From contig NC_135554.1 of NCBI RefSeq assembly GCF_964340395.1, positions 20,321,592 through 20,385,591 of the forward strand: DNA of 64,000 nt, read 5' to 3'. Position 1 is the first letter of the stretch. Each line of letters opens with the position of its first letter. The notes below the pieces were generated by a model, which was not told the origin of the DNA, searched no databases, and saw nothing but the letters and a program-made list of their open reading frames with translations. Both the position numbers and the translations under genes were made by a program. Of the stretch, positions 16,309 through 64,000 are shown piece by piece. The DNA is from Glandiceps talaboti. Its lineage: Eukaryota; Hemichordata; Enteropneusta; Spengelidae.

Positions 16309-19300
16309 TTAAAATGAACAACTGTTAACTCCTGCTCCTCCGATAGCTTGCCTCTGGAAGTCTACTTGTGACAGGGTACCGTCACCTGTTTGGGCCGCAA
16401 GGAATTGTGTTATACATCCACGGAATCCAGTTGTGTATCGGTTGGCTGTCAACAATGAAATGTCACCACTGTAACCACCTATAGATAGAAAAAGAAACAT
16501 ACGATATGTTACCAGTCAATTATAGCAGCTTTGTCCATTATAAAAAGAAGACTGTGTAATTTCAATTTAAGAAATCTGGTGTCCCATCAAGACATCAAAA
16601 GTGTTATCAACTTCACCTTGAATATTTGTTACCAAATTTCTCTCACAATACTTTTACAACCAGTAACACTGAAGTGAAGCACTTTTTCTATGTGCTACAC
16701 TTGTTTATAGCATTTATATCAAGTGTAAATGTATACTGTTTCAATTGGTTCATTTACAAGCCTAGCATATGGCCTTTCTAATGTGGTCAATTAGCAAATG
16801 AAAAGGTATACTTTTACATTTGATATGGATGCTATAAATGATTGTGGTATATACAGAAAATGCTTTACTTTGGTGTTATGGGTTGTACTTTTACTTGGCA
16901 CAAGCCATGTTATTGTCTTTGAACAGAAAGTATAGAATATATACCCTGGTTGTTCTGAGTCACTGGTTCTGCAGTTCTTGAAATACGAGTCCAAACATTC
17001 CAGAATGCCATTATTTTCCTGATTAGTCATAAATTATTCTTGAGGAGATATAACCATATTATTCCCCAATATTTTTCTTCATTCAGCTGGAAAATACTTG
17101 TGACCTAAGGGTTTGTCACTACTTGTCTAGTGACTCATAGTGACAAGGCCCCTTAGGTCACTCATATTTCCCTTGGGTGAATGAAGAAAAATACTGGGGA
17201 ATAATATCTAATTATACATTCCGTAACCCAAATATACAATAGTCATATTCATCATCACGTAAGCACAGGGTTCTCTCAAGTCCTAAAAGAGTGTTGGTTG
17301 GTTAAACCAATACATGTATATATGGACTAGATATGAACAAAGCTGATCGACCCTGAAGAAACATAATTATAGCAGGAAAGTTAAAAGGCTTCAATGGACT
17401 ATCAAAAAGTGTCCTTACCAAGGTAGAGATTGCTGTCATCTGCATTTAATCCGACTTGTGCACCAGCACTTTGACCTGAGTATCTGTACTGTGTTCCTGT
17501 CATATCCTGTACAGTAAACGTGAGTGACTGCCCAGACCTAAAAAATATATAATCAAATGGTTACAACTTGAGGACCTGGACTTTAACCTTGAGAATCTGT
17601 ACTGACTGACGGCCCAGACCTGGAAAATATTAATGGAACTGTTACTATGGTTACAACTTGAGGACCTGAACTTTGACCTGAGTATCTGTACTGACTGATG
17701 GCCCAGACCTGGAAAATATTAATGGAACTGTTACTATGGTTACAACTTGAGGGCCTGGACTTTAACCTAAGAATCTGTAAAATTATTATTGTAAGCAACG
17801 AAATGCAAATGATGGACTAAACTATTACAAAATAATTATAATATCTTTTAAGAAAACACAATTTATTTATTCCCATATAAGTTTTCATTTTTTCAGTAAG
17901 TTACGTTGTGTTTTTCATTAACCTTCAGTGTATGCTCAGTAATATAAAATTAGATATGATTTTAGTGCTGTGTATTTACCTTTGTACGTTGATATTGTAC
18001 CAGTTATTATTAACAACCTGAACTGTTGAGGCCACAGTTTCACCTGGTCCACTTCCTAGATTAAATCGGCATTCAAAACTACCATCTTTGATTCCCACTG
18101 AGATGAAGTCTGTGGTGACACCTTTACCATACCACAGTAGAAGACTGTCAGTAGAAACATCATCTACACGTATCACTAAACCAAATGAATTTACAGACAC
18201 AGTACTGTGGGCAAAAAAAAAAGAGTAGAATTTAATGCTTACAATTTTCAGTGATTTGCTGACAGCTATGGTACCAAAGACAAGTTTCATTTGAAGGTAT
18301 TCTCAAAAAGTCAGTCATCTCAAATAGTAGTAGTGATTTGGACTATAATGTACAGGTCTAAAGTTGGCATTTCACAAAGATCAAGAGAAGTATTACTGGT
18401 AATGTGACAGAACCCTGTGATGTGCATAAGTACCAGTGTGACATACAGTGGGTATTTGTGTGAGTGTTTTGTGGTGTTCTCTGTGGCCTAAGACTATTGG
18501 TAGAAGAGAATACTACAAAACCCTGTGATGTGGTGTGGTGTAAGTGCCAACATGACATACATGCAGCATTTTGTGATGTGCTCTGTGGCTTATATTAAGA
18601 CTTCAGAGTAACTAGGGGTTCTTACCTTGCTATAGTCGATGCTGGATAAACCAGGTAACTGTATCCACTAAACTCAGGCCTACTAAAAGTCAAAGCTGAA
18701 AAACAGACATCAAAATAAAAATATTTCAGTGGCGTACATGTAGCTTCAGACAAAAGTGTAATAACACCAAACTGTAACCATATTATGGACATATCACCCA
18801 CTGTCACTATTGCCTACAGGTTACTTAAAGCATAGAAGAGTACAGGATTTAAGGAGAACTGAAAACTGGAAGCAAAGTACAGAGATTTATGTTTCTTTTG
18901 TAGCATGCAAATGTAGTTACAAGTTATAGGTATATAATTATGGCCAACAAATTTCCACAGATTTCATTAAGGGACGATCGCACAAAGTCACACAAGCTCA
19001 ATAAGTGAACTTTGTTCATTTAGACTGTACTGTGCGAACTTTGTTCATTTAGACTGTACTGTTTGTACATTTATCTGCACACATTTATCCCATTTTAGTA
19101 CTACAGTACCTGTTTTAAAAGGTTTTTTTAAAAATTATGTTTAAATTATGTGGCACCTTACAATATTTGTTGTAATTATCATTATCGTTACTAAGGCATA
19201 ATACAAGTATGGATTGTCAGGTAAACTTTGCAGACTTACCATCAGAGCATGTAGGTCCTGAGTACTGGAAGGTACATAGACATTGAGCCTGTCCAGTGTT

Positions 19301-20883: not shown

Positions 20884-22931
20884 TGTGTATGCTACGAAAC
20901 TCAGTAACAGAGGGAGAACAATCGAGCTAGTAAGTTCATAGTTTCAACACGTTGCATAATACTTGTAAAAAATAAATTTCTAAATTGTAAAAAATAAATT
21001 GTAAATTGTAAATAAAAAAAAACAAACCCTGAACCTATATCGCTCAGAAAAAGTTGTCCAGATATACACAAAGCCTAGATAAGTTGTGCAATGATAGTAC
21101 ATGTATAATAATTGGTTCAACATAAAGTAACATTGTATTACCTCTACTTATCTGAGCCATGGATGGTATATCCACTGTAGCTGGTACACCACCGATGTAG
21201 GTAATAACACCTAAACCTAACTCTACAGCACCACTGGCAGCTTGACCTACTGATGGTGTGTCTTCATTGTCCACAAACAGAACTCCTTCTAACTGGTTTC
21301 TATTGGCACGGATTGTGTGCCATTCATTCAATGATACTTCACTGTTACTTATCACCACAGCAGGACCTGCACCAACTGGGAACAAATACACACATGATGA
21401 ACACTCAGTGTTTTCTTATTTCAAACCTGTAGTACCTATTAGTATGTACTATTCATTTATTTAAAGACCAGTGGTTGCCAGTCACACATGTCCAGGTGAA
21501 GGGACTCTTAGTCTTACCCATACATGCTGACCATCATGTCAAATTTGGCTTACGTGTATGATGTCAAGAATTCACTAGTGATTTGGGAGAGAAGTTTTTG
21601 GTATGTCATGTAAATTTCTACTCAGAAAGTTAAACATAGTTTTCTTTCGGGTTTACCTTTCAGATTTCCATTGACAGAAAAATATGTATATCAATCTTTT
21701 TTGTGCACCAAATAGAAAATTACAAAATACCCCCCCCCCCCCCCCAAAAAAAAAAAGTCTTAGTATTGCTTCTGCATTATTTTCAGTGTGCGATCCGAGA
21801 CATGCATGTGTGAATCGGACAAATGATGTGCTTTGAAAATTTTTTATAAATTAATTCTAAATAGCAGATACCATTAACCAATATCAAGCAAACTTCAATA
21901 GAAATTGTCCTTGATGTAACTCATGTGGAAACATTAAGAGATTGCCAATAACTTACCTGTCCCCAAACTAAATACAAAGTAAACTCTTCCTTGAAGGAGT
22001 CCAACACCAATGAAGTCACTGTATAAACTGTTCCATAGGAGTATACCATTATTATTGGAGGGTTTGAAGTCCAGTACAATGTCTGTTACAGAATTCATTG
22101 TCATGATATACCTGAATCCAAGGTATGAGTCACCACTGAACAACGGATTTGTTATACTTTCCACTGCAAAGAAAAATAGTCATTGACAAAATTATATTTT
22201 TGTCAAATCTGTATATGTATAGAAAGTATTCATGTTTTCCTGTTTGCTGGGTTTTGATATCAGGTATCATATTGCTACTAGTGAATCTGTTTCATTTAAA
22301 CTCATAAGTAAAACAACAAGTTTAATACTGAACATGTGGTCTGATAGCACATACCTGTATCACAGCACCCCCAGTGCTACATACGTAGAATCGTAGAATC
22401 TGACAGTGTTATACATACCTGTATCACAGCGGTCCCCAGTCCATCCAATGCTACACACACACTCAAATGTAGTATCTGATAGTGTAACACATTCACCATC
22501 ATTTTGACAAGGAGCAGATGAACATGGTGATGTAGAACAGTATCCAACATTAGTACCATCCAGAGATTCCTGCCAATTCACTGAATCCATTGTACTGCCA
22601 CCAACCTATAGAAAATACAGTGCAATATGCTTAGATTTGACCAAAACACAATTTGTGACACCTATGGTCTGTATACATACAGGCACTCATACCAATTTGT
22701 TCATGTACACCCACAACCACACACATCTACCCAACCTCCACATACACTCTGCCACAGACATATGTATGTACACACATACATCAATCACCACAAAACACAC
22801 ACATGACCATATGTATGCATACATGCAGACAAAGAGTCTTAGACATAGACAGACAGACAGACAGACAGACAGATAGACAGACATACACACACATATACAG
22901 ACATAGACACAGACACAGACACACACACACA

Positions 22932-30100: not shown

Positions 30101-33100
30101 TCTTGATTTATGGCATCTCATCCAGTATACTAAACTCCCCAATCTCATCCCGTCTCAAAACACGACGTACTTTCACACTATTACTAGTTATACTTGCCTC
30201 AGTTCTCTTAAACGCTATAAAATTGTCATTAGAAAGAACATCATTTTCAAAAGTATAAGCAAAGTTTGTGGTATCCGTAGTGTCAGTATTTGACTGAATC
30301 TCCTCTCCATTGTGGTTGAGTACTCTAGCTTCATCAAATGATGGAAATCCCTCCCTATTCTGGGCAATTACTCTTCTACATGTACAATGGTATATGAGAA
30401 TGACAGCAAAGAAGATGAAGATGACAGCAATTGTCCCACACAGTGCAGCAATGAAGGCAGTGGAATAAGACATGGCTGGAGATGAAGATGGTGGAGACGT
30501 TGTCATGGTAACACCATCATCTCCTGTCAGAGAAGTCCAAATATGGTAGATAGCCTAAGCCCATAGATAATAGTAACAGACTGGTACATGTAAAGACTAT
30601 TGCTTCACACTGGCTATGATTTTGGTTTTGATGGGATTGGAGGGGGGAGATGAAAGGCACAACCAGTTTATATGGTGAACAGTGTTTGACATGTAAAGGG
30701 ATTAACTATCTTTTGACATCCTTGAACTTCTGCTGTTTTAATCATTAACACCAGGCGATGACTGACTATTTGCCAGCCATGTCTAGAAGTCAGTGGAACA
30801 GTATCAACAACACCATACATATTAGTTGTTTTGGGTATAATGTATATGCATTATATTGCATTTACAGTGGCAAAATAAAAGGTAGCATTCACGTATTCAC
30901 ATTGGGTAATCACATTCACATTCAGTAATTATATTCATATTGAGTACTCATATTCATGAGATTTATAATCACGATTACTGATATGAAAATAAGAATCATC
31001 AGTACTCCCAAACTGCAAAACATGCATGGATGTGCCACCCTGGGGTACACATGGGGTACACCTTACAATACTGCATGGTGACCACAATTTCAATCTGTAA
31101 AACTGTAACCTTTCAAATCTACTGATATAAGAGGTATACAACTATCAAAGTGACAGCACCTGTCAGTATATTGTCAGAACTGGTATTACTACAAGCAAGT
31201 TGATACCTACTACCAGTAGTCTAACTCTGCTACTTTTACACTCAAATTAATAGTCTAATTCTATATTCACAATTTTTGATCAGGTCCTCACCATACAATG
31301 TTGTCTCCCCGAGATATTTTCTCAAGTAGGGATGGCCACTTTAGCAGTTGTATGTTTGGGACAGAGAAAGTGTATTTCCTCTGACAAGTTTCTAACAATG
31401 GAAAACCAAGTGATGGTCTCTAGAGTCTGCCAGTGATTTTTCTTATGTATTTTTATTACACAGGGGTGAAAGCCCTGAGAAGTAAATACAATTGTCAAAT
31501 TTCAGTTACCGTACTCACAAAATACAAGGGGATATGGCTAAGTGTTGAGGGAGAACACTGCATGTTACAGCTATTAAATCTGGCAAGTATACATTGTCAT
31601 TCACATATTGCAATACAATTTGCATATATAAACAACTTTGAAATCTGTGCTTTTCTAAAGAGGGAAGGCAGCATATACAGTGTAAACTGACAAGAATACT
31701 ACATAAAGATCACCCTTAACAACCATGTAATTTCTAGAGTAGGGCAAGATTGTTGATTTAGTGTACCTGTGTATGGCATTACTTACTTAGTCTAGACTAA
31801 GCACAGTTTATCAATTGGTGAAATGAAATTCCAGAGAGCACACTGCTCTCAAAATATTCACCCATGCCAATTCAACCAACTATTTTCAATGTACATGTGC
31901 TACAGTGACTTTAAATTTACAGCCCCATCTGTAGACTGTAAGATATATTCTGTTGTTAAAGGCCTACCAGGCTTCTAAACCACATGTCAGTGGTAGCTGA
32001 TAGTGTGGCATGAATGTTGTATCTTACATCCAAAATGTAGTACTTTATTTTAGCCTATATATAGCTAATCAGAGAATACCAGCCACAGTAGGATATGTTT
32101 ACTTACCAATTTCACAGAGTGGTCCTGAGTAACCTAGAGGACATCTACAGCTGGTTGCTACTCCAGTCACAATACATGTACCACCATGTTGGCAGGGATT
32201 GTTTTCACAGACAGATATCTCACAGTCCTGACCAGAATAGCCACTAAAGCAATCACAGTAATACTCACTGCCACCCTTGTAAATCAAAGAATATATTGTC
32301 ATTAATCATTTACACTCTATGTATTAATTGCTTCAAAGTAGCTGTTGGCATGTCCTCATTGAAGTTTGGATCATAGTAACGATTCTTTTTGAATGATGTA
32401 TGATGTAATGTTCATTTATAGAGACTCAAACTAAAACAAGCACTGAACATGGTTATCACATTTTTCAAACTAAGTTGGTGTTTGATTATTACAGCTACTC
32501 CATAACACTTGGCTTTATAGATTTTTTCAACTTACCTGTTCTACACACTATCCTCGGCTGTCACATTCACACACTGACAAAACAGTTGCCAACATCCACA
32601 CACCCTGCCTCCATCCCTACCCCTAGGTATCAAACTACAGTTGTATTTAGCTTAGCTGTTCCACACACTCTCCTCTGCTTTTACATGTAGTCTATCAGTT
32701 GACAAACACTGACCAAACAGTTGCCAACATCCACACGCCCAGCCCCACCCCTAAGTATCAAACTACATTATTCAACCTACCTGTTCCATACACTTTCCTC
32801 TGCTATCAACCCAGTTGAACCCACACTGACAAAACAGTTGCAAACATCCACGCAACCTACCTACCCCCCCCCCCCCCCCATCCCCAGGTATCAAACTATT
32901 TAACTTACCTGTTCTACACACTCTCCTCTGCTATTACAGTCTACCAACTCACACATACTGACAGGACAGTTGCCAACATTCATGCCGCCAAGGTAGTCTG
33001 AAGTGAGATCCACAGATTGACTGGCTAGTAGTAAGTCATTGATGCAGCCATTGAAGTTTCCATCACCAAGAGATGTCACTCCCTGCAATAAAGCAAACAA

Positions 33101-36100: not shown

Positions 36101-39100
36101 TTCTTGTAACAAACTTTTTAGGCACTTTCTAGTTTTTTGCAATTTCATGAGTTACAAACAAGGACTTGATATATGTTGTTTCACATTGTTTTTTCAAGTA
36201 GGAAAACATATTAGAGTTGTTTTATGAATTAAAAAAATCCAAAATAATTCCAAATTTGTCATCCAAATGGCTACATTAACATATCAGTGTTCTTTCACTG
36301 TAAATTTATTTTGCTATAAGTTCCCCAAACTTCTATTATTATTTCTTAGGTAAAATACTGAAGAAGACAACACAAGATCTATCATACAGGGACACCATAG
36401 ATGTAATTAGAAGACTCACTGAAGCAGTAGTCACAGTAGAATCTTGTCTCCTGATTCTGACAACTGACACCAGCAGGACATGGACTGCTTGCACAGAAGT
36501 CCCTATTTTCACAGTTAGCCCCAGTGTATTGGTTTGAACACAGACATGTGTACTGTGTACCATAGGTTGGATTGGGGAGATCTATACAGTTAGCACTATT
36601 CAGGCATGGAGTGTTGACACATGTATACAGGCTGTCACAGAGTAGACCGGTAAATCCAGCCCGGCATTCACATCTAGAAAACAACAATAAAACTTTGGAA
36701 AATTAAGACCTTATACTATAGCTAGTAAACAAAATTAAACCTGATGTTATGAAACATTGATTTGAACAATGGCATGTTACCCTTTTATAACTATTAGACC
36801 GAGTGAAGAATGTCTAACCACTGCAAAGTGACATGCAACATACTTTGTCAGTTACAGATTGATATTGAAACAATTTTTCTGCAAAAAAAGGGTATAAAAT
36901 GGTTGAAGCACTTCTGAGCCCTTCCTTACATAGAGCAATGTTCTATATGAGGTAGTGCAGTAAACACTTACGATATCATATTTCGACGATATTTCTCAAT
37001 ATACCGTAAGCACCATAAAAAGGCTAATACAAAAGGGTACTATTTATAAAATGAAGCGAGTGCAGCAAGAAGGCATAGTAGGATACAACACCAACCAAGA
37101 ATAAAGTTAGACTAAAAATATATCTATAGAAGTGTAGCATGGGGGGAAAGTGAGCCAAAACTGCAGTGGCTTGAATGATGACACACCACCAAAAATAAAC
37201 TGCTTTGAAATTTTTTGAATATGAATATAGAGATAATAGCAGTTAATGGACTCAGTATTGAGATGTGAAAATATGTATGTGACAATTGCCCATTGTAGTA
37301 CACCCCTGATGATGCTGACAAGACGTCAGTGGAAATTTGGGATTCACGTGACTTCCAAGAAATGTTTTGACTGTGAGTAGAAATTTTCATTACTCAGTAT
37401 GGATACTTCTATGATGTCAACATGACTCTGAAAATGATATACTTAACAATGAAAACTCTGCTTGTCCATGACGATGAATTTTAATTTCTGAAAAACTTAT
37501 ACTTACAGAATTCTTAGATAACATTTCCATTAAATCACTTGATATTTTGGTTTTCACAAATTAAGAATCTCTCGTTGGAAACCAGAGGTAAGTAAAAACC
37601 ATCAGAGGATAAGTGGATAACAACAGGTTGTTTTTTTTTAAAGTCAAGAGTGGTAGCACTATCAGGGAAAGTAGAACAGAGATCAACAGAGAGAATCAAC
37701 TAAAAGGAATAAGTTGGAGAGAGAAAGAAGGTTACTGCATAGATAGAGGGAAATAGGGTTAAATTACAAATTACGCATGCTTTTCAGGACTTAAAGAGTC
37801 TTGTCAAGTACCATATACTATATAACTCATATCCAACTGCAAATTTTCTTTAAATTTACTTGTATAATTCTCAGTATCTGCAATAGAATACTACCACCTA
37901 GGTTTGTCATAATTCTCAGTACCTGCAATAGAATACTACCACCTAAGTTTGTCATAATTCTCAGTACCTGCAATAGAATACTACCACCTAGGTTTGTCAT
38001 AATTCTCAGTACCTGCAATAGAATACTACCACCTAGGTTTGTCGTAAAAATAAGGACTACATGTATTCGGTTTCTTGGTCGACATCATAACTTCCACTCC
38101 AGGCGCTACACATGTATTACAGTGACTGTAGGTGCATGTGAGAATAAGTCGACCATCTTGTTCTATTTTGACCCTCTAGCATGAAGTAAAATGCTATTGC
38201 AGGTACTGAGAATTGTTTTCTTTCAGAATATACAATGCCACTTCAATCACTTGTACAGCTGAAAATAGTAAAGCATATTTTTAAGTGAAACTTGAACCCC
38301 GAAGCAGTGACAGGACTGCTGCAGGGGTGTTTGTAACATCGCTGCCACAGGGTTGTCATACACACACCTGCTGCAGAGGTGTAAACATCTCTGTAGCAGC
38401 AATGCCTGCCACAGGATCACTAGGATCACTAGCAGGTGCATTCACAATAGGATATTGACACACATGCGTAGGGCTAGGATATAACAATGACCTTAGATCC
38501 CTTGCTGTACGGATACTATGGATCTTCTGTGTACCAGAGCACTGACAAACTGTATTACAAACCTGTAGCTATTGAACTGGTCGACACATGTTGCTCCATT
38601 CTGACAGTTGTTATTTTCACACTCATCAACTTCAAGCTCACAATCTTTACCAGTATACCCTAAAAATGTACAACAAAAAAAAAATATGTACAAAAATGGC
38701 TCAAATCTTTGACAAGCTTCACAACGCCGTTTTGGAATCTCTCCATTTTCGCCCATCTACGCAAACTCCATTTTCGAATGAAAAAAAGACCAATTTCAAA
38801 TGATCCACTTTCAAACCATTGTGTATGTGTGTGTGTTTTTGTCATCTCCACGTAGACAGTTGCCACAAACACAACAAAATAGTTGCATTTTCATTTGAAA
38901 ACGGCACCATGTAAACAGGGCTTACCAGGTAAGATGAATTCTTCTCAAAAGTTTCTGAAACCATGGTAGACATTTCAGAAACTTTTACAGTACTGTATGT
39001 CAAAGGCACAAGGTTCTGATATTACATGATATTTACATAAATTATATTGCACTGAGGTCACAGCAGTATATTGTACTTCTATTGTCTATCACACAGTTTC

Positions 39101-42100
39101 ATATACATTTTGTATACCGGGTATAATCATGATTGTACAATGTCATCCTGATAATTATAAAGTTGGAGGAAGTATAAATTCAAAACATGACAAAAATTAC
39201 TAAACAAACAAAAATCATGCAAACAGTAATACTCGTCATCACTGTTAAATCTTTTGATAGATATTCATCATAATTCCTTTTCTTTTGAAAAGTGTCAATT
39301 TTTATGGGGGGGGGGGGGGATTTTCATTCAAACGTGTCGAAATATATACTAGCTTGTGATAAGGGAATACACAGCAAACAAATCAATAATTGTATAGATA
39401 CCTGTAACACATGAACAGAAATACTGCTCATCTCCAGTTCTTTGACAGGTTGCGCCATTCTGACAGGGGAGTGAATCACAGGCTGGTAATGGTGTCTGAC
39501 ACTGGTCACCTTCATAGCCTTGTGCACAGATACAAATATACCCACTACCCTCTGATATACATGCACCGTTATTCTGACAAGGACTGCTACTACACGGATC
39601 GACACCCTGGCACTGATCTCCAACAGCTCCTGGGGGACACCTAGAAAAACAACAGTATCATGATTATGAAACCACTATCCCCAGATACACACACACTGCT
39701 ATTCTGACATGGTCTGCATGGATCAACATCCTAACATCGCTCTCCTACAGTTCCCTATTCAATTACCTGTAAATCATTATTCAAAACTACAATGTAGTAC
39801 ACCTTACCTGCACACAATATTACCACTGCTACAATCTAGTACATCTTACCTGCACACAATATTACCACTGCTACAATGTAGTACACCTTACCTGCACACA
39901 ATATTACCACTGCTACAATCTAGTACATCTTACCTGCACACAATATTACCACTGCTACAATCTAGTACATCTTACCTGCACACAATATTACCACTGCTAC
40001 AATGTAATACATCTTACCTGCACACAATATTACCACTGCTACAATCTAGTACATCTTACCTGCACACAATATTACCACTGCTACAATGTAGTACATCTTA
40101 CCTGCATACAATATTACCACTGCTACAATCTAGTACATCTTACCTGCACACAATATTACCACTGCTACAATCTAGTACATCTTACCTGAACACAATATTA
40201 CCACTGCTACAATCTAGTACATCTTACCTGCACACAATATTACCACTGCTACAATCTAGTACATCTTACCTGCACACAATATTACCACTGCTACAATGTA
40301 GTACATCTTACCTGCACACAATATTACCACTGCTACAATGTAGTACATCTTACCTGCACACAATATTACCACTGCTACAATCTAGTACATCTTACCTGCA
40401 CACAATATTACCACTGCTACAATGTAGTACATCTTACCTGCACACAATATTACCACTGCTACAATCTAGTACATCTTACCTGCACACTATTTCACCACTG
40501 CTATCCTCCAAACAATCTCCTCCATTGCATGGATTAGAATCACAGCCTATCAATGCCACTTCATCGCAGAATTCACCTGTAAAACCACTCTTACACTGAC
40601 AGTATGGCTACAAAATAAAAAAATTAACCAAGTTATATTTTTTTGTGGTAAGGACATTGAAAAGTACAAACATTTTTAATCCTTTTAAATTTCACAATGG
40701 AAGTAATTGCTTATCAAGTTATTTCCAAGTCTTTCGGATTTATTTGGATCAAATAAAGATTATTATACCATGCACAAGTAAGGTTATTTTCTTGGAACAG
40801 AAAATATGGATTATATACCAGTCGTTCTAAGTAACAACCTGTGTCTACGTCACTAGTTCTGTGGTGCTCAAAATGTAGGTCAAAGTGTTCAAATTTGGCA
40901 TGATTACTTTCCTGATTTTTCATTAACTATGCTTGAAGAGGTATAATTATACTCTTTCAACATTTTCCTTCATTCAGCAGAAAAATACTCATGACCTAAG
41001 GGTTTGTCACTACTCATATCTAAGAATTCATAGTGACAAGGCCCCTTAGGTCACTCATAGTTTCCTTGGCTTATTGACAAAACATATTGGGAAATACTAA
41101 GTAGGAGGAATCTAGCTGCCTGATTAAATACCACAACAGTTATCTACCATAATGCATCCAAAACAGACTTACCTCATTGTCGATTTCCCAACAGTATCCA
41201 TCATTTTGACATGGGTTTGGAGAACAGATTCCTATTTGATATTCACAAAATGTACCACTGTAGCCCTCAGCACAGAAACAGAATGGACCTAAAATTAAAA
41301 ATAACACAATGTTAAAATGATTATCTTGAATTTTCATATAAAGATCTACACATCAACATTCTCTCCTGACGGCGTGACATTCTGTTGTGAACTAGAACCA
41401 AAAAATTCAATTTTCATTTGTTGAGAAATGGAGGGAAATGGTGTCAATAACTGTTATAGCTTGATGGTTGCCAGATATGGCATGTGTTCTATGTCAGTCC
41501 AGTGTGCATAACATGTTACCAATATTTGTTACTGTTTATGTTGACAAAACTTAATAGTTGCCCTAAAGTTACTGTTAGTATAGCCACAACCACGTTTAGT
41601 GATTTTTCTCAATATGGATATACAAAATGATAAAATCGTGTCTTCTGTATGCGAAGTTGATGGACTAGAAGGAAAAGTTAAAAAGTTAAAAGTTGTGAAA
41701 TGTTTACACATATAACTGTAATGAAACAAAACTGATGAAATAGACACAACAGTGATATATTTCTTAGAATCTATTATATTTGACTTCTCTATCTAGATGA
41801 TACTATAAACACATACCTAGCGCATCAACATAACATGAACCATCATTCTGACATGTTCCTGTGTCACAAGTCGATATACTGGCCTCACAGCGTTCTCCCG
41901 TAAACCCACCAGGGCACTGACACTGGTATACATCATTGTTACTCAAACAGATTCCACCATTGTAACAAGTGTAACTGTCACAGGGATCAGAAATAGTCTC
42001 ATCACACAGTGTCCCTGTAAACGGTATGTTACATACACATACAAATGACAAATAGCCCTGGTTTACACACTGCCCTCCGTTTTGACATGGGTTAGACTCA

Positions 42101-45100: not shown

Positions 45101-48100
45101 CGATAATGCACAAAACCACAAGTATTATACGCTAACTTATTGCCTGGTTATATGAGTGCACTAGTAGACATCTATTACCCTGAGGGCTGTTATGTAGCAG
45201 CTATTAACCGAAGATGAAAGCCAAGGGAAATGACAGCTACATCACAGTACAAGGGGTAATATGACATCGACTTAGTCTACTGCTTGAGTAAGGCTCAACA
45301 AGTAGTTTATAACACATCACATTCTCAGGCACATATTCTTTCTACAGGCAAAGCAAAGCTCTAATAAAACTTCCATGCTATGTGAAAATAGAATGCAACT
45401 AGTGCCACTATATGTAAATTGAGGTCACAATGGGTCACTATGCCACACCACATGATATAATTTAAGCCAATCACTGATGGGCATATGCAAACGAAGTGTT
45501 ATAACAAGGGATATTTTCAATATTTTTGGAATACAGTATTGATTACTAATCAATACAAACACTAACCTCCATTTTGGCAAGGATCGCTGCTGCACTCATC
45601 GATCTGAATATCACAGTTTATTCCAGTGAATCCAGATTCACACCGACATTCATATCCATTCACCAAATCTACACAGCGTCCATTATTCTTGCATGGATTA
45701 CTGCCACATTCATGTGTGTCCGTTTCACACTGTTCACCGGAGTAACCATCAACACATGTACACAAAAATGAATTAACTTGGTTTGCACAAATACCACCAT
45801 TCTTGCATGGACTGCTTGCGCATTCATCGATGTCGATTTCACATCGCTGACCGACAAACCCTCCGGCGCACTGACACTGGTAGGAGTTCAAAACATCCGT
45901 ACAGGTGGCACCATTCAGACACGGATTACTTGCACACTCATTTGTGTCTATTTCACACTTTTCTCCTTCGTAGCCACTGCGACAAGTACAAGTATAACCA
46001 TTGACAAGATCAGTACAGGTGGCGCTATTTTGACATGGTGAGCTGTCGCATTCATTGACATCAGTGGCGCACTGCACACCAGAGAATCCTGGCTGACATT
46101 CACATATATATCCATTGATACCATCCTGACAAACAGCGGCATTACGACATGGGTTACTCGCACACTCGTTAGCGTTAAACTCACAGTGTGTTCCCACATA
46201 ACCAGCAGGACAACTACAAGTGTAGGTATTCACGCCATCAATACATGCTGCGCCATTCTGACATGGGTTACTGGAACACTCAAATAACTCAGAACCACAG
46301 TTTTCACCACCGTAACCGGCTGGACAAATACACTGGTATCCATTGATTTGATCCACACAGTCGCCACCATTCAGACAAGGACTGGCTACGCAATCGTCTA
46401 TATTCACTTCACAGTTGCTTCCTGTAAATAATTGCAAAACATCAAGTCAATGTCTCTAAACCTGTCTACCACGACAAAATTAATACTTCAAGCACTTTGA
46501 CCTTCCCTCCTGAAATTAATACTAAAGGGTAAGTTAAAAACGCCACTTTGCAATATTTTACCACAAAACACTGGCATCACCCAAGTACTAGAATCAACTC
46601 TGTTACTTCAGCAAACAAAGAGAGAAACATAAACATAATGACTGACACTTTTAAAATTCATTGATATACTGAGTATCAAGACTCACTTTCAAGTAAAATC
46701 TCAAACATAGGTAGCTAAGTATATCGGTGAAACCTTCCGAACAGTCACAGACATAGGCAGCTAGGGAGTTCATACTAACTCACCAGTAAAACATTCATAC
46801 TAACTTACCAGTGAAACCTTCCAAACAGTCACAGACATAGACAGCTAGGGAGTTCATACTAACTTACCAGTGAAACCTTCCAAACAGTCACAGACATAGG
46901 CAGCTACAGTGTCTAGACACAAGGCTCCATTTTGACATGGACTACTGGCACACTGGTCCCCATCATCCTCACAATTGGACCCAGACCAACCTTCTTGACA
47001 ATCACATCTGTATCCACCTATCAAATCTCTACAAAAACCTGTCAAGATAAAAGTTACAATAACAAGTGGATGAAAGTTGGCCTCACTTGATATGAACACA
47101 TTAATCACGGATGGACGGACCGACAAAAAATTATGAAGTATCATCCCTTCCTCTGGGCACAATTTGAAGCAAAAAGTAGCATTATGTCATGATGGTTAAC
47201 TTTTATTCAAATTAAGAAACTAGGAATTAGCATAATTTCATTTTTATTTGAAACTTTTGAAATATTATAATTGTTTTAAGAAATTAACAACAGAATATGC
47301 TGAAAAGTTAACTTCAATGAAAGTATATAGCAGTTTCTGTTTCAAAATTTCAAAATGGAAATCTGAAAATTTATTTCAATAAATGAATAAGATAAATAAA
47401 TAAATACAAAAATAATTAATAAACAAACAAACAAATATGCAAATAAATATTAAGTAGTTCACTGTGCCCCATGTCAGCAAAGCTTACACTAAATGGGTGA
47501 CTTGTCTAGGACATTCTTTCACCATTTGCATTATGGATTTTTTTCAATCCAGTTCAAAAAGAATCTGAAGACACCATGTAGTTTGCCTTACCTCCATTTT
47601 CACAAGGGTTACTGAGACACTCATTTACAGCATCAATTTCACAGTGAGTTCCTGAAAACTCAGCTGGACACTGACACCGATATGCTTTGACTTGATCTAT
47701 GCAGGTACCACCATTCAAACATGGAGTGCTAGCACACTGATCACCGTCCTCCTCACAATGTGTACCACTAAATCCATCAGGACAGCTACATCTATATGCA
47801 TTCAACACATCAGTGCACTGGCCTGGGTGGAAAAAACAGTATGTACAATACAATGCAATGCAGGTAATGTTGTAAACTGACAAAGAAGTGGAAATAGAAG
47901 TGTGGAAGGGTAGAAGAGTTGAAAATCCAATCCCATCAAGACAGGTACGATTAGTGTATATGTAACATCTATTTATTCAACAGATCTGTACACTGACCTG
48001 GGTGGAAAACACTAAAAGTACATTACAATACAAGAATAGCAAGTTATACACATTCAAACAGAAAATATTTTATTTCTCTGGTTGCTCTAAGTCCTGACAA

Positions 48101-51100
48101 TGCACATTAACATCACTCGTTTTGCAATACTCAAACTACAAGTCAAAACTTTTCCCGCACTATTTTCCCCATTTTTCCCTGATATAAAGTTTGCATAGAT
48201 ACTGTAAAACTATGACAATGTTGTGATTTTACAGTCTTCAGCTAGTCCTCAGGGACTTAATTTTCACTAATTTCACTAAATGCATATAATTCAAGACAAA
48301 TAACACCAAGAGATCAATTTCTAAATTTATAGTAGGATGCTTGCTTTTACTAATAGTAATAACATAGTGAAGAGGATGACACTTTTGAAATGCCTGTAAT
48401 AATGAATGTACTTACCTCCATTCAGACAAGGTCGACTTGCACACTCATTGATCTCAGATAGACAGTCTGTACCAGTAAATCCAGGAAAACACTGACATTC
48501 ATAGCTATTGACTTTATCTATACATGTACCACCATTTTGACATGGGTTACTGCTACATTCATTTATATCAAACTCACAGTTGGGACCTGGAAATAATCAA
48601 GTTTTATTCAAATATTATTGTCAATTTTTCAGTTTAGAAAATATGTTCAATAAGTCGAATTTTCAAATACTTCATGTATACTATACAGTAACTATAGTTT
48701 TGTTTTTGTTTTTAAAGTGAGGTGTTCTGTTCTGGTAAAATCTCAACACTTGCAAGATACAAGATACAAGATACAAGATACAAGAAAACTTTATTATCCC
48801 TTGTAAGAGAAATTACGGTGATATAGTTCATTGAAAATAAAAATGAAGATACAATATAAAAATATACACTCGCTTTATGTCTTTAAAAAAGAAATAAGAA
48901 CTTTATAATACTCCCAAATACACAATCAAATAACACCACAAATTACAAAATTTACCATTAAAATCTTCTAAATATTGACATCGCTTAGACCTTTGTAAGT
49001 CAGAGATATTGATTAAAACAAAGCAATTTAGAGTAGATAATGCAATTCTATTACACAATAACTCTGGTGTGTCACACATACCAAATGGATAAACAAACTT
49101 TCACTGTTAAATAATGTCACTGTACCCTTTCTAGCAAACAACACCTACATGTAGCAAATTCATCTCCTACCAAAGCGATGTAAAGGGAAATAACCATGCC
49201 ACCATGTAAAAACAATGTCAACTTCAACGACTGCCTTGGATACTACCTTTGACTCAGGCTTACAAAACAAAATACACTGTGTTATTTACCTTCATATCCA
49301 AACACACAAAAACAAGTATAGCCTGCAATCTCCTCCTGACATATCCCACCATTCACACAAGGATTACTGGCACATTCCACCGATTCTGATCCACAGTGTG
49401 TGCCAAGAAAACCTTCTGCACATAAACAGGTATATCCATTGACAGCATCAACACAAGTTCCACCATTGAGACAGGGTAGACTGGCACATTCATTGACGTC
49501 TTCACTACAGGTTGAACCTAAGTATGGAAATAATCAGTAAAACTTTAACATGTTTTTCGTGTAAAATGACAAAAGCTGGATAACTCATACTATTTTTTTA
49601 AATAGTGCTTGACATAGTTTTAGGAGGTAAAGCCATGGAATATTGCAAACGTTTACATTTAATAGTCAAACACGTCTTTCACACCTAAATCGTGAAAATA
49701 CTAGAAGTACATAAATAGAAAGAAACTAGTATATTAGCCAGTCTCTCTTTCCTTATCACTATACACACAATCTGGTAAACACTGGTAAAAATTGCTATGG
49801 AAAAGCTTCCCCCAATTAAAATACACTCATGTGGGGCTTCTGGTACAACTACATGTTATTCCACAATATGTTTCTTTGTTCAGCCAAGTGACATACATAC
49901 AAGTGACCTAAGGGGGCTTTGTCACTATGAGTCAATAGATGATAGCAACAACCCTTAAATCACGAGTATTTTCCAGCTGTTTCAACTCGCTGAAAGGAGA
50001 AAAATATTGGAGAACAACATAATTATACCACCGCCACTAATATCAATGAAAAATCAGGGAAAGTAATGACAATTTTGAACGTTTTCACTCATATTTTGAA
50101 CACAACAGAACAAGTGACGTAGACCCATGTTGTCATGACACAGACAAACGTTGTGACATTGAACGACCGGGGTATAAATTCCATATTTTCTGCTTATGCA
50201 TGGTATAAATCCCAGTGTCAGCTGCAGGTTCAGCCAATTAGAAACAGAAGCCACATACCTTATTGTCAAGACATAACAGTTATTGTTATATCTGTCTTGT
50301 ATGGTAAAAAAGATCATTTCCCAAATTTACTTACTCTCAACAACTCAAGAGGGTGCACTAATACTCACCAGCATATCCAGCTGGACATAGACACACGAAT
50401 GCATCCACAAGATCCAGACATGTTGCACCATTTTCACATGGACTACTGGAACATTCATCTTCATTTTTATCACAATTAATACCTACATAGTGACAAGTGA
50501 AATATATGAGAGTTCAGTCGAGGTCCTGACAGGGACCATATTAAGTACTACAATCCCAGTCATGTCCTAGACTAGTGAGAGTTATGATTCCAAGGTTAAA
50601 TTTCACTATTTTGCATTTCTTTATACCAAATATTTACTAGAAATGAGTTACCAGTAAACCTTCTAATAAATTAAACAACCAATTTTCTTGCCTTCTTCTA
50701 GTCATTGATACACTGTCTAAATTGGTTTATATCCGTATGTAATCTACCAGTAATAAGAAACAGTACAGATCCACAGGTAAGAAGTGGCCTTTCCACAATT
50801 TGTCATGGTGGCGCTCTACTTCCTGTTTGTGTGTACCTTGGGGGTACACATGGTATTGGTTACTAAGTTAATCATAGAGCACTGCTGCTTTCCTCAATGT
50901 CTGAACAACACAAAAGACATCCCTGGTTTATATTGTACAAAATACCAAGAGACAAAGTGCTTAAGGAACGGTACTATGAGGTGATAACCCCCCCCCCCCC
51001 CCCCCCATTGTATTCTCAATTTTCCTGTTTGCATTTTGGAATGGCCCAGTGACATTACTGACTGAGTCACTACATTGGTAGAGGGCAGAGTTTACTGTAA

Positions 51101-54100
51101 AAGGTCACTTATTATCCGTACATCTATCAGTACAGACACACTGATGCAGGCTGATAGTCTGTTGACCTTACTACATTGATAGAGGGCAGTGTTATTGTAA
51201 ATGTAACTTATTAGAATATCACCTGAATATCTATCAATATAGATAAACTGATAGAAATTGACATTATTGCATGCACTGCTACATTGGTAGAGGGCAGTGT
51301 TTACGTCACTTATTAGAATAATATCTGAATATCTATCAGTACAGATAAACTGATAGAAATTGACAATACTGAATGAACTACTACACTGGTAGAGGGCAGT
51401 GTTTATTTTAAAGGTCACTTTATTACCTGAATAACCATCTGTGCAGATACACTGGTATGAATTGACATTGTTGGCACATGTTGCACCATTCTGACAAGGG
51501 TTACTTATGCATTCATCAATGTCGACACTGCATACAAGACCTTTAAAAATAACAAAAATATTGAGTTTAAATTCATTTATCCTCATCAGCACATTCTCAA
51601 TTCCTTACAATTCTTACAGTATAACAAACTGATTTATCTGTTGTGATTCAAGTTGATCTTTACTAAATTGACCTTTGAGGTCATATTTCTATTATCACAT
51701 CATTTCTTTCTGCAGTTTCATAGCACAGATATTACATTATATAGCATATTGTGTTTCTTTGTGCTAAGCCTTGTACAAAGTTGACTAGTTATAATGACAT
51801 GTTCCACTCATATACATATTACATGATAACAATTTACCTGTATATCCAGCAACACATCTACACTCAAAACCACCACTATTCGTGACACATGTGGCCCCAT
51901 TTTGACATAAGTTAAAGTCACAAATGGAAGCTTCTGTTGGGACTACCCTTGTGGTTTGCACTGGTACTGTTACTACTGTTGTTGGTTTCTCTGTCACTTT
52001 AGTTGTAACTACTTGCAGAGTCGTAGTTTGAAGTGGCGTTTGTGTAGTCCTTTGAGTAATAGTAGTTGCTTGTGCTGTTGTCACCTCCTGAGTTGGTACT
52101 GGGGGTGACACAGTGGCCCCTCTAATAATGTTACATGTTCTTCCAGTATATGGTGATACACAGTCACACATAAATGACGCAACATGTTCTTCAGTTCGTA
52201 ATGATCCAGTACAAGTTCCACCATTCAAACATGGGTTGGGATCACACGGATTCCCTATAACAAAATGGAAGCACATTTCAGTTACAACTTACTGTATAAT
52301 GTGATCAATTCCAGATATCTAAAAATTTCACAAGACAGTGAGAAGACAATCTACCCACTGCATGTATACAGGGTGTATATGATTCTCTTCACATGCTAAT
52401 GTAGAAACATGTAGACACTTACATTGCAATAGTTATCATGTAGTTTGTCAAGATAAGTGTTTTGCTAGGAATGTATGTCCCATTTTAGACCAAAACATTA
52501 ATTGAGATTTCAGATAGCAGGTGGGGCAATCAAAGGATGACAATATATCTTATGTATAGTTGGGTGAGGGAGGGGGTTCAATTATGGATACCTAATTTGT
52601 TGCTGTAATAAGCATTTGGATATTTAGACGAAATAATTTTTCAGATCAGAATGAACTCAATTTCAAATATGTTCTTGAAACTATGTACATCCCATTGAAG
52701 AACACTGTTGTACAGGCATATCAAAAATGGGTGAAAATTGTAAAGATAACATGTCATACAAGTACAAAATGTAGTTGATAACTTCTCACCATCTCTCACA
52801 ATGTGTGTAGAGAAACCAAACAACAGCCATCACTAACTTACAGTAAACATAAACATAAACATACAAAAACATGAGTCTGTAAGTAACATGTACCTTGTAA
52901 GTATTACTGTATACACCAACTTTTATATTATCTAATATTTGTGAGTTTTCCGTAGTTCTATTTGAGCATTAAATGTTTATGCTAAGACAATCAAACTACT
53001 GGAAATAGACAATTTTTAGTCACTTTATGACTGTTTCATGAGAAAACCAAACGAAAATGGTCATACAGATTTTGAATATTGGTTACCAAGTTTGTCTTTA
53101 CATATACAAAGACACTGACAGACAATATCATAAATAGTACAACTCAGAGATAATATCAGCTATAAACATCAGGGTGCCAATAATTAGTAGCTGCTGTTGT
53201 CTGGATATAATAGTCATCTATACAGTAACATTGAACCATACGGCTGTTTGAAGTACAATGTAAATTGTACTTTGAAAATGTGTTCTTTAGATTTGGATGT
53301 ATGGACTTTTACTGAAAACAATACTGAAAACATAATAGCACGCCTATATGCAAATGATATGCAAGTGAGGATGCAGTTGTTCATTCTACAGGAATGCGTG
53401 TGATCGCATAGTGTCATTTTTACAGAAATCTGTTGTTTCTGATAAACATATGTAGTAATAACAGTACCCCATGCTGCATGAGTGTAAGTGAGGGTACTCA
53501 GGGATATTCCCACTTGTGCTTGCTTTGCTTTCTGCTGCACTTTCACTTGTTATGCTTGTGAAAGTGTTGTCGCAGAGAACACTGCAAGCACTCATGCAAA
53601 TACCCCAAGTATGCCATACTTGCCCTCGTGGGTCATAGGGTTCTGTTATATCAGTCTCTACACAAAGCTAGTACTATGGTGTGCTCACAATGATGAAGCT
53701 CTCAGTCTGCCACAATGTGACTGTCTTATTTGCTTATTTGATGCGCATGTACTAGTTAAGAGACCTCCCATGGTCAAAAAAAGTAGAAATAGAATATTTA
53801 TCAAAAACTCACCATCCAGACATGTAGCATCTGATTCATCTTCTCCATTGGGACAATCTGTCAAACCATCACATAGCCATCCAAAGAAGATACACGTACA
53901 ATTGACATCATTGCATGATATATGTAATGCAGCTCCTACATTAGGACAGTCACAGTTATAAAGGCCTGCTAGAATATAAGAATAAAACATAATGTCAAAA
54001 ATCGTGCAAATGGTGTTGTAGCACAACTGACTGAACAATTCACATATTTGTTTGATAGCTCCTAAACTAGGATATTCACACTGATCGACAGAGGCCTGCA

Positions 54101-63051: not shown

Positions 63052-64000
63052 GGTGTGACCTGTCAACCTAGTGTAGTGGATTGTAGTGTGGTGTCAACCT
63101 AGTGGATTGTAGTGTGGTGTCAACATAGTGGATTGTAGTGTGGTGTCAACATAGTGGATTGTAGTGTGGTGTCAACATAGTGGATTGTAGTGTGGTGTCA
63201 ACATAGTGGATTGTAGTGTGGTGTCAACATAAATTGTAGTGTGGTGTCAACCTAGTGGATTGTAGTGTGGTGTCAACCTAGTAGATTGTAGTGTGGTGTC
63301 AACATAATGGATTGTAGTGTGGTGTCAACCCAGTGGATTGTAGTGTGGTGTCAACATAGTGGATTGTAGTGTGGTGTCAACATAGTGGATTGTAGTGTGG
63401 TGTCAACATAGTGGATTGTAGTGTGGTGTCAACATAGTGGATTGTAGTGTGGTGTCAACATAGTGGATTGTAGTGTGGTGTCAACATAGTGGATTGTAGT
63501 GTGGTGTCAACATAGTGGATTGTAGTGTGGTGTCAACCTAGTGGATTGTAGTGTGGTGTCAACATAAATTGTACAATATGGTATCAACACAGATTGTAGT
63601 GTGGTGTCAACATAATGGATTGTAGTGTGGTGTCAACCTAGTGGATTGTAGTGTGGTGTCAACATAATGGATTGTAGTGTGGTGTCAATATTTTGGATTG
63701 TAGTGTGGTGTCAACATAGTGGATTGTAGTGTGGTGTCAAGCCAGTAGATTGTAGTGTGGCATTAACATAGACTAGTATGGAGTTAGCATAGTAGATTGT
63801 AGTGTGCGTTAACATAGCAGACTAGTATTGTGTCAGTATGGTAGATTGCAGTGTGGTGTCAAGGCATTTTATAGTGTGATGTCTACATAGCGGACTGTAG
63901 CGTGGTGTCAGTATGGTAGCTTGTAGTGTGATGTCAACATAAGCAGACTGTAGTGTAGTGTCAGTATTGCAGATTGTAATGTGATGCCAATGTTGTAGAT
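63052..64000. repeat. 26 bp minisatellite, runs to the window edge
   Basis: About 35 units of a 26 bp sequence based on GGATTGTAGTGTGGTGTC and AACATA, regular to about 63730 and then degenerating. It lies in the putative RanBP3-like intron. Confidence 0.95.

Follow-up and report, generated by a model that had tools for sequence, protein, structure and literature searches.

The window (the whole 64-kb stretch of DNA analysed here) contains an EGF-repeat gene on its minus strand, recognized from Pfam matches to EGF and laminin G and from EGF exons. At one of these exons, the 5' splice site is repeated in tandem within the following intron. The window holds three further donor-side and two acceptor-side duplications, which are given below with the exons and the intron concerned.

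40480..40607, minus strand: exon of 128 nt that encodes half of an EGF domain and would have founded the array at its 3' end (acceptor ..TATTTTGTAG, open frame, EGF domain completed on joining to the following exon)
39641..40479, minus strand: intron of 839 bp, phase 2, with the array making up 83% of its length
39401..39640, minus strand: next exon, EGF domains (EGF matches and exon join; 3' end approximate)
39787..40503, minus strand: 42-bp minisatellite, 17.1 copies, each with CAG|GTAAG (TRF)
39672..39754, minus strand: decayed duplicate of the start of the next exon, an acceptor-side duplication (alignment to 39630-39542)
46727..46906, minus strand: second donor-side array of the EGF gene, ..CLEGFTG|GTAAGTT, donor 46867
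51050..51469, minus strand: third donor-side array, at a donor near 51426; units of about 102 bp, about 4 copies, decayed
32516..32985, minus strand: fourth donor-side array, at donor 32908; units of about 120-125 bp, 4 copies
17557..17779, minus strand: acceptor-side duplication, 2.5 copies of 89 bp, TTTTCCAG|GTCTGGGC

The repeat begins 24 bases inside the coding exon 40607-40480, at the 3' end of the exon, which terminates TGTGCAG|GTAAGATG. Its unit consists of 24 exon bases and 18 intron bases and spans the exon/intron boundary. The exact register claimed in the original prediction was borne out: GT stands at 40479, 40437, and so on to 39807 on the minus strand, giving 17 donors and a total of 672 bp, with all 16 steps equal to 42 bp. 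CAGGTAAG is likewise unbroken in 16 of the 16 intronic copies, as had been stated. TRF reported a period of 42, 17.1 copies, and 96% matches over 717 bp; because the score was 1329, the array is not due to chance. The intronic copies (n = 16) differ at one position that is either G or C (C in 7 of 16) and by five further substitutions, none of which falls in CAGGTAAG. The exon's own copy departs from the array consensus within the exonic part; thus, the copies in the array are closer to one another than to the exon. The exon with its upstream flank (40480-40900) has a single full-length place in the assembly (590 Mb, 47 contigs). About 150 bp upstream of the exon, positions 40747-40900 have at least 39 other genomic matches with 77-86% identity and represent a dispersed repeat element.

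When the donor at 40479 is joined to the acceptor at 39641, where the 839-nt intron closes with TTTTTCTAG, a complete six-cysteine EGF domain is obtained, and the joined product of 123 amino acid residues has three EGF stretches by Pfam. By the logic of the protein, these two sites are the predicted working pair, and the EGF join at the first donor places the authentic boundary in the copy at the exon-side end of the array. It had also been claimed that each later donor adds an Arg codon and an in-frame TAA. The three donors that we translated gave ..EIVCR-stop, and the remaining donors should do likewise because all of them take in the first bases of the intron. This ending results from the phase of the intron (phase 2) and its GTAA start. 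The in-frame stop is no special design, as any phase-2 intron beginning with GTAA yields Arg-stop.

The 839-bp intron is duplicated at both ends, as a decayed copy of the start of the next exon lies between the donor array and the acceptor. The alignment of 39754-39672 to 39630-39542 had a score of 76, and the best of 300 shuffles reached 34. We considered CAGGTAAT at 39766, 41 bp on, as an 18th donor and rejected it; it stands at the edge of the decayed exon-start copy, in the place of the acceptor of that copy. In the other donor-side arrays of the window, the GT, as read from the sequence, is kept in about 1 of 3 extra copies at 51426 and in 2 of 3 at 32908, as compared with 16 of 16 in the 42-bp array. 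TRF did not report the array at 32516..32985. The acceptor-side duplication at 17557..17779 may belong to a second gene. At 37860-38047 there is also an intronic array (45 bp, 4.2 copies) with TTGCAGGTACTGAG in its unit. An open frame for a transmembrane segment and a cytoplasmic tail, without a Pfam match, lies at 30108-30554 and is perhaps the end of the EGF gene.

Similar arrays were found elsewhere in the genome. Contigs C1 and C2 were searched for three CAGGTAAG with a spacing of 14-44, and at least nine distinct arrays were obtained, as compared with three control arrays; single CAGGTAAG sites were also commoner than the control (20772 vs 14089). In seven of the nine arrays, the start coincides with the donor of a coding exon with an open frame, and two (L009 and L038) are ambiguous. 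Five of the exon-anchored arrays lie in genes that we take to be IARS1, a USP9X/USP24-like gene, BRF1, PNPT1, and a DDX28-like helicase gene, several of the array-bearing genes presumably being housekeeping genes. The exon of the DDX28-like helicase, the only one of the five named genes run on Pfam, gave a DEAD match. The other two arrays (L015 and L054) stand at open coding exons without a gene name. From the listing of single CAGGTAAG sites, we obtained a donor array of 99-bp units (L055) at an exon that is presumably PSMF1-like. The donor array of the DEAD-box helicase gene (L059 and L060; G000:C2:31286600-31289640) is intronic, extends over 3040 bp in 80 steps of 38, and contains 67 exact CAGGTAAG; it is the longest donor array seen in this genome. 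Two more donor arrays were seen on exons adjoining sampled ones, namely L061 (at least 12 copies), in what we take to be a DDX18-like gene, and L077 (..PTRE|GTAAGT). Contig C1 also carries an array of about 5 kb with 46-bp units containing AGGTGAGT (G000:C1:2288030-2292966).

The periods of eight arrays are 38, 42, 43, 46, 50, 52, 52, and 99, and that of L054 varies; as most of them are not multiples of three, the frame is not kept. The idea that the unit always ends just past the donor was rejected, since the intron parts of the units in seven exon-anchored arrays are 18, 19, 9, 6, 7, 35, and 18 bases. The intron part amounts to 24 and 13 bases in the ambiguous arrays L009 and L038, and, in the DEAD-box array, to almost all of the 38-bp unit.

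We then compared donors with the rest of the unit. In six exon-anchored arrays (L053, L054, and L059/L060 were left out of the count), the donor 8-mers had 7 substitutions in 392 bases and the rest of the units 36 in 2246 (Fisher p 0.83), and we rejected the view that donors are selectively kept; when the ambiguous arrays L009 and L038 were added, the values were 8/656 and 61/3542. Intact donors numbered 9 of 12 in L052, 3 of 6 in L055, and 23 of 23 in L038, but the arrays were located via intact donors, which should bias these values towards conservation, and thus donor conservation is not fully judgeable from them. Even with this bias in its favour, there appears to be little if any conservation of the donors.

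For the frequency of such duplications, donors were chosen independently of arrays: 20 DEAD-box exons, 10 kinase exons (the first 10 of 20 picked by rule), and 24 EGF exons of the window. Six of the 20 DEAD-box donors (weak) and one of the 10 kinase stretches (last exon) were left out, and 47 donors were usable. A copy of the donor surroundings was present within 315 bp downstream at 6 of the 47 donors, 24 of which come from this window, itself picked for its array and hence the biased part of the sample, and at 6 of 86 control points another 330-530 bp along, which were taken by distance from the donor, intronic or not. Three of the six positive control points fall within the 42-bp array itself. 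Donors were not significantly enriched over control points (6/47 vs 6/86, Fisher p 0.34, or 0.07 without these three points); they are duplicated at a rate not below that of nearby sequence. Outside the window, 2 of 23 donors were positive (L081 and L082, both kinases; L083, L086, and L087 are kinase donors from near-identical paralogues), and 1 of 14 control points, none of them taken for kinases. The positive donor at 22418 lies exactly at the hand-set threshold of 38, with 24 as the highest shuffle maximum printed and three control points at 35-37. The window donor picked at 51222, a later copy of the 51426 donor, was scored negative, and the L061 and L077 arrays are not in the donor count. 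In L081, the end bases of the kinase exon recur in the intron as degenerate units of about 19 bp.

Minisatellites are plentiful in this genome in general. Seven 10-kb stretches, taken at the fixed coordinate of 70 kb, contained 16 separate minisatellites with a period of at least 15, and the scripted donor motif occurred in none of the 16; in one of them, in L050, CAGGTAAAAC was noticed by eye. We rejected a general over-representation of donor motifs in minisatellites: triplets of CAGGTAAG numbered 1847 as compared with 497 for the reversed motif, yet for AGGTGAGT the numbers were 1498 and 3684. In the window itself, positions 63074-63963 hold about 35 degenerate copies of a 26-bp minisatellite unit.

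In an amphioxus study, tandem arrays termed "mirages" are described at donors and acceptors of the Adh3 and globin genes (BflGb6 and BflGb9), with units of 10-160 bp, many of them with intact splice signals; haplotypes differed in length, and RT-PCR was taken to mean that regular splicing is undisturbed (PMC3087553). Another paper adds PGBD5 as a mirage, cites troponin C, and gives copy numbers that differ between two lancelet sequence versions (PMC3902484). The 42-bp array resembles these cases in being tandem and boundary-spanning with intact splice signals, and both donor-side and acceptor-side cases occur. It is a mirage by both structural features tested, namely the boundary-spanning unit and the authentic boundary at the exon-side end. 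It differs from the amphioxus cases in its hemichordate host, in the copy number (17, and about 80 in one DEAD-box gene), and in the presence of several such duplications in one window; regular splicing and length instability were reported for amphioxus. Our literature search, which covered titles and abstract openings of open-licence papers, found no mirage arrays outside lancelets. What is new is the lineage (Hemichordata) and the recurrence in this genome; the kind of structure is already known.

Two other systems share features with the array. In the potato RdRp gene, one tandem duplication covering an intron/exon boundary is associated with a new intron (PMC4974935). The 42-bp array likewise has a duplicated segment with an AG|GT boundary, but the EGF domain is completed by an acceptor, 39641, that falls beyond the array and is not supplied by a duplicate. 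An acceptor-side duplicate is present in the 839-bp intron, but it is not this acceptor. Recursive-splicing (ratchet) sites combine a pyrimidine tract with CAG|GTRAG inside an intron, an acceptor and a donor standing back to back, and each unit of the array, with ..CAG|GTAAG, similarly has a possible acceptor adjoining a donor. Unlike such sites, the unit has a poor pyrimidine tract (only 8 pyrimidines in the 20 bases ending in CAG) and a spacing of 42 nt, which is less than the usual minimum intron size. A splice from 40479 to a CAG within the array would recreate CAG|GTAAG, which could be spliced again.

The array is very probably a neutral minisatellite of the mirage type, tolerated through the use of the exon-proximal donor. 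We infer its origin and growth, its neutrality, and the exclusive use of the donor at 40479 as follows. A tandem duplication of a 42-bp segment across the 5' splice site of the exon would have founded the array, which then would have expanded into the intron, with slippage or unequal exchange as the probable mechanism. Since all the added copies are downstream, neither the original exon nor its donor would have been disrupted. The array would be tolerated because splicing starts from the 5'-most donor, the one attached to the real exon, so that the sequence as far as the acceptor at 39641 is removed as a single 839-bp intron. Among the three readings offered in the original prediction, tolerance because the first donor wins has the best support: the same architecture is seen at further genes, several of them presumably housekeeping genes, the donors show as much variation as the remainder of the unit, the periods are mostly not multiples of three, and the published amphioxus cases were reported with normal splicing. 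The intactness of all 16 extra donors in the 42-bp array counts against the mirage reading, as does that of all 23 donors in the ambiguous array L038. The splicing decoy and the copy-number switch that had been offered beside it gained no support here.

In a copy-number-dependent switch, use of a downstream donor would give Arg-stop and lead to nonsense-mediated decay or a truncated protein, and the length of the array would tune the output. The equality of the 17 donors in CAGGTAAG and the immediate stop after each later one are what such a switch would need, but the stop merely follows from phase 2 and GTAA, donors elsewhere decay (L052 and L055), and amphioxus mirages were reported not to disturb splicing; we therefore regard a switch as improbable. 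The same intact donors, 17 of 17, together with the 67 exact CAGGTAAG across the 3040-bp DEAD-box array, could suggest a selected platform of U1 sites that aids exon definition or shields the intron against early polyadenylation. This seems very unlikely, given that intact donors are unremarkable when the intronic copies carry five substitutions and one two-state site, and that donors are not conserved over the six arrays. An assembly artefact, in the copy number or in the existence of the array, is very improbable: only one assembly is available, but the copies bear distinct substitutions, boundary-spanning arrays recur in unrelated genes, and the array is only 717 bp long.

The occurrence of mirage-type arrays here extends mirages, described from a small number of amphioxus genes, to a further phylum and suggests they are not rare in it. 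The identical donors in exact register, with order as their only difference, offer a clean natural test of the choice made by the spliceosome. The arrays also supply material from which introns can grow and perhaps be gained, and they can mislead gene prediction in such genomes. We suggest more tentatively, as a possibility rather than an expectation, that splice-site mirages occupy a sizeable share of enteropneust introns and that a spliceosome with a strict first-donor rule hides the arrays; the numbers behind this are 6 of 47 donors (2 of 23 outside the window) and one array with 67 exact donors over 3 kb. If this is true, mirages are shared by Ambulacraria and Chordata, whether as an ancient deuterostome trait or through repeated origin, and constitute a large natural experiment on 5' splice-site choice among identical competitors.

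One 51-kb contig of the assembly (G000:C40; L042 and L043) contains the mitochondrial genome more than three times over, as 15,435-bp copies joined head to tail. The mitochondrial COX1 is 92% identical to a Glossobalanus marginatus cluster (11 members) and 87% identical to Saccoglossus kowalevskii, the other 118 of the 120 matches listed being at or below 80%. On the strength of the 92% identity, the DNA was assigned to an acorn worm and an amphioxus origin of the window was rejected. Glossobalanus is an enteropneust hemichordate.
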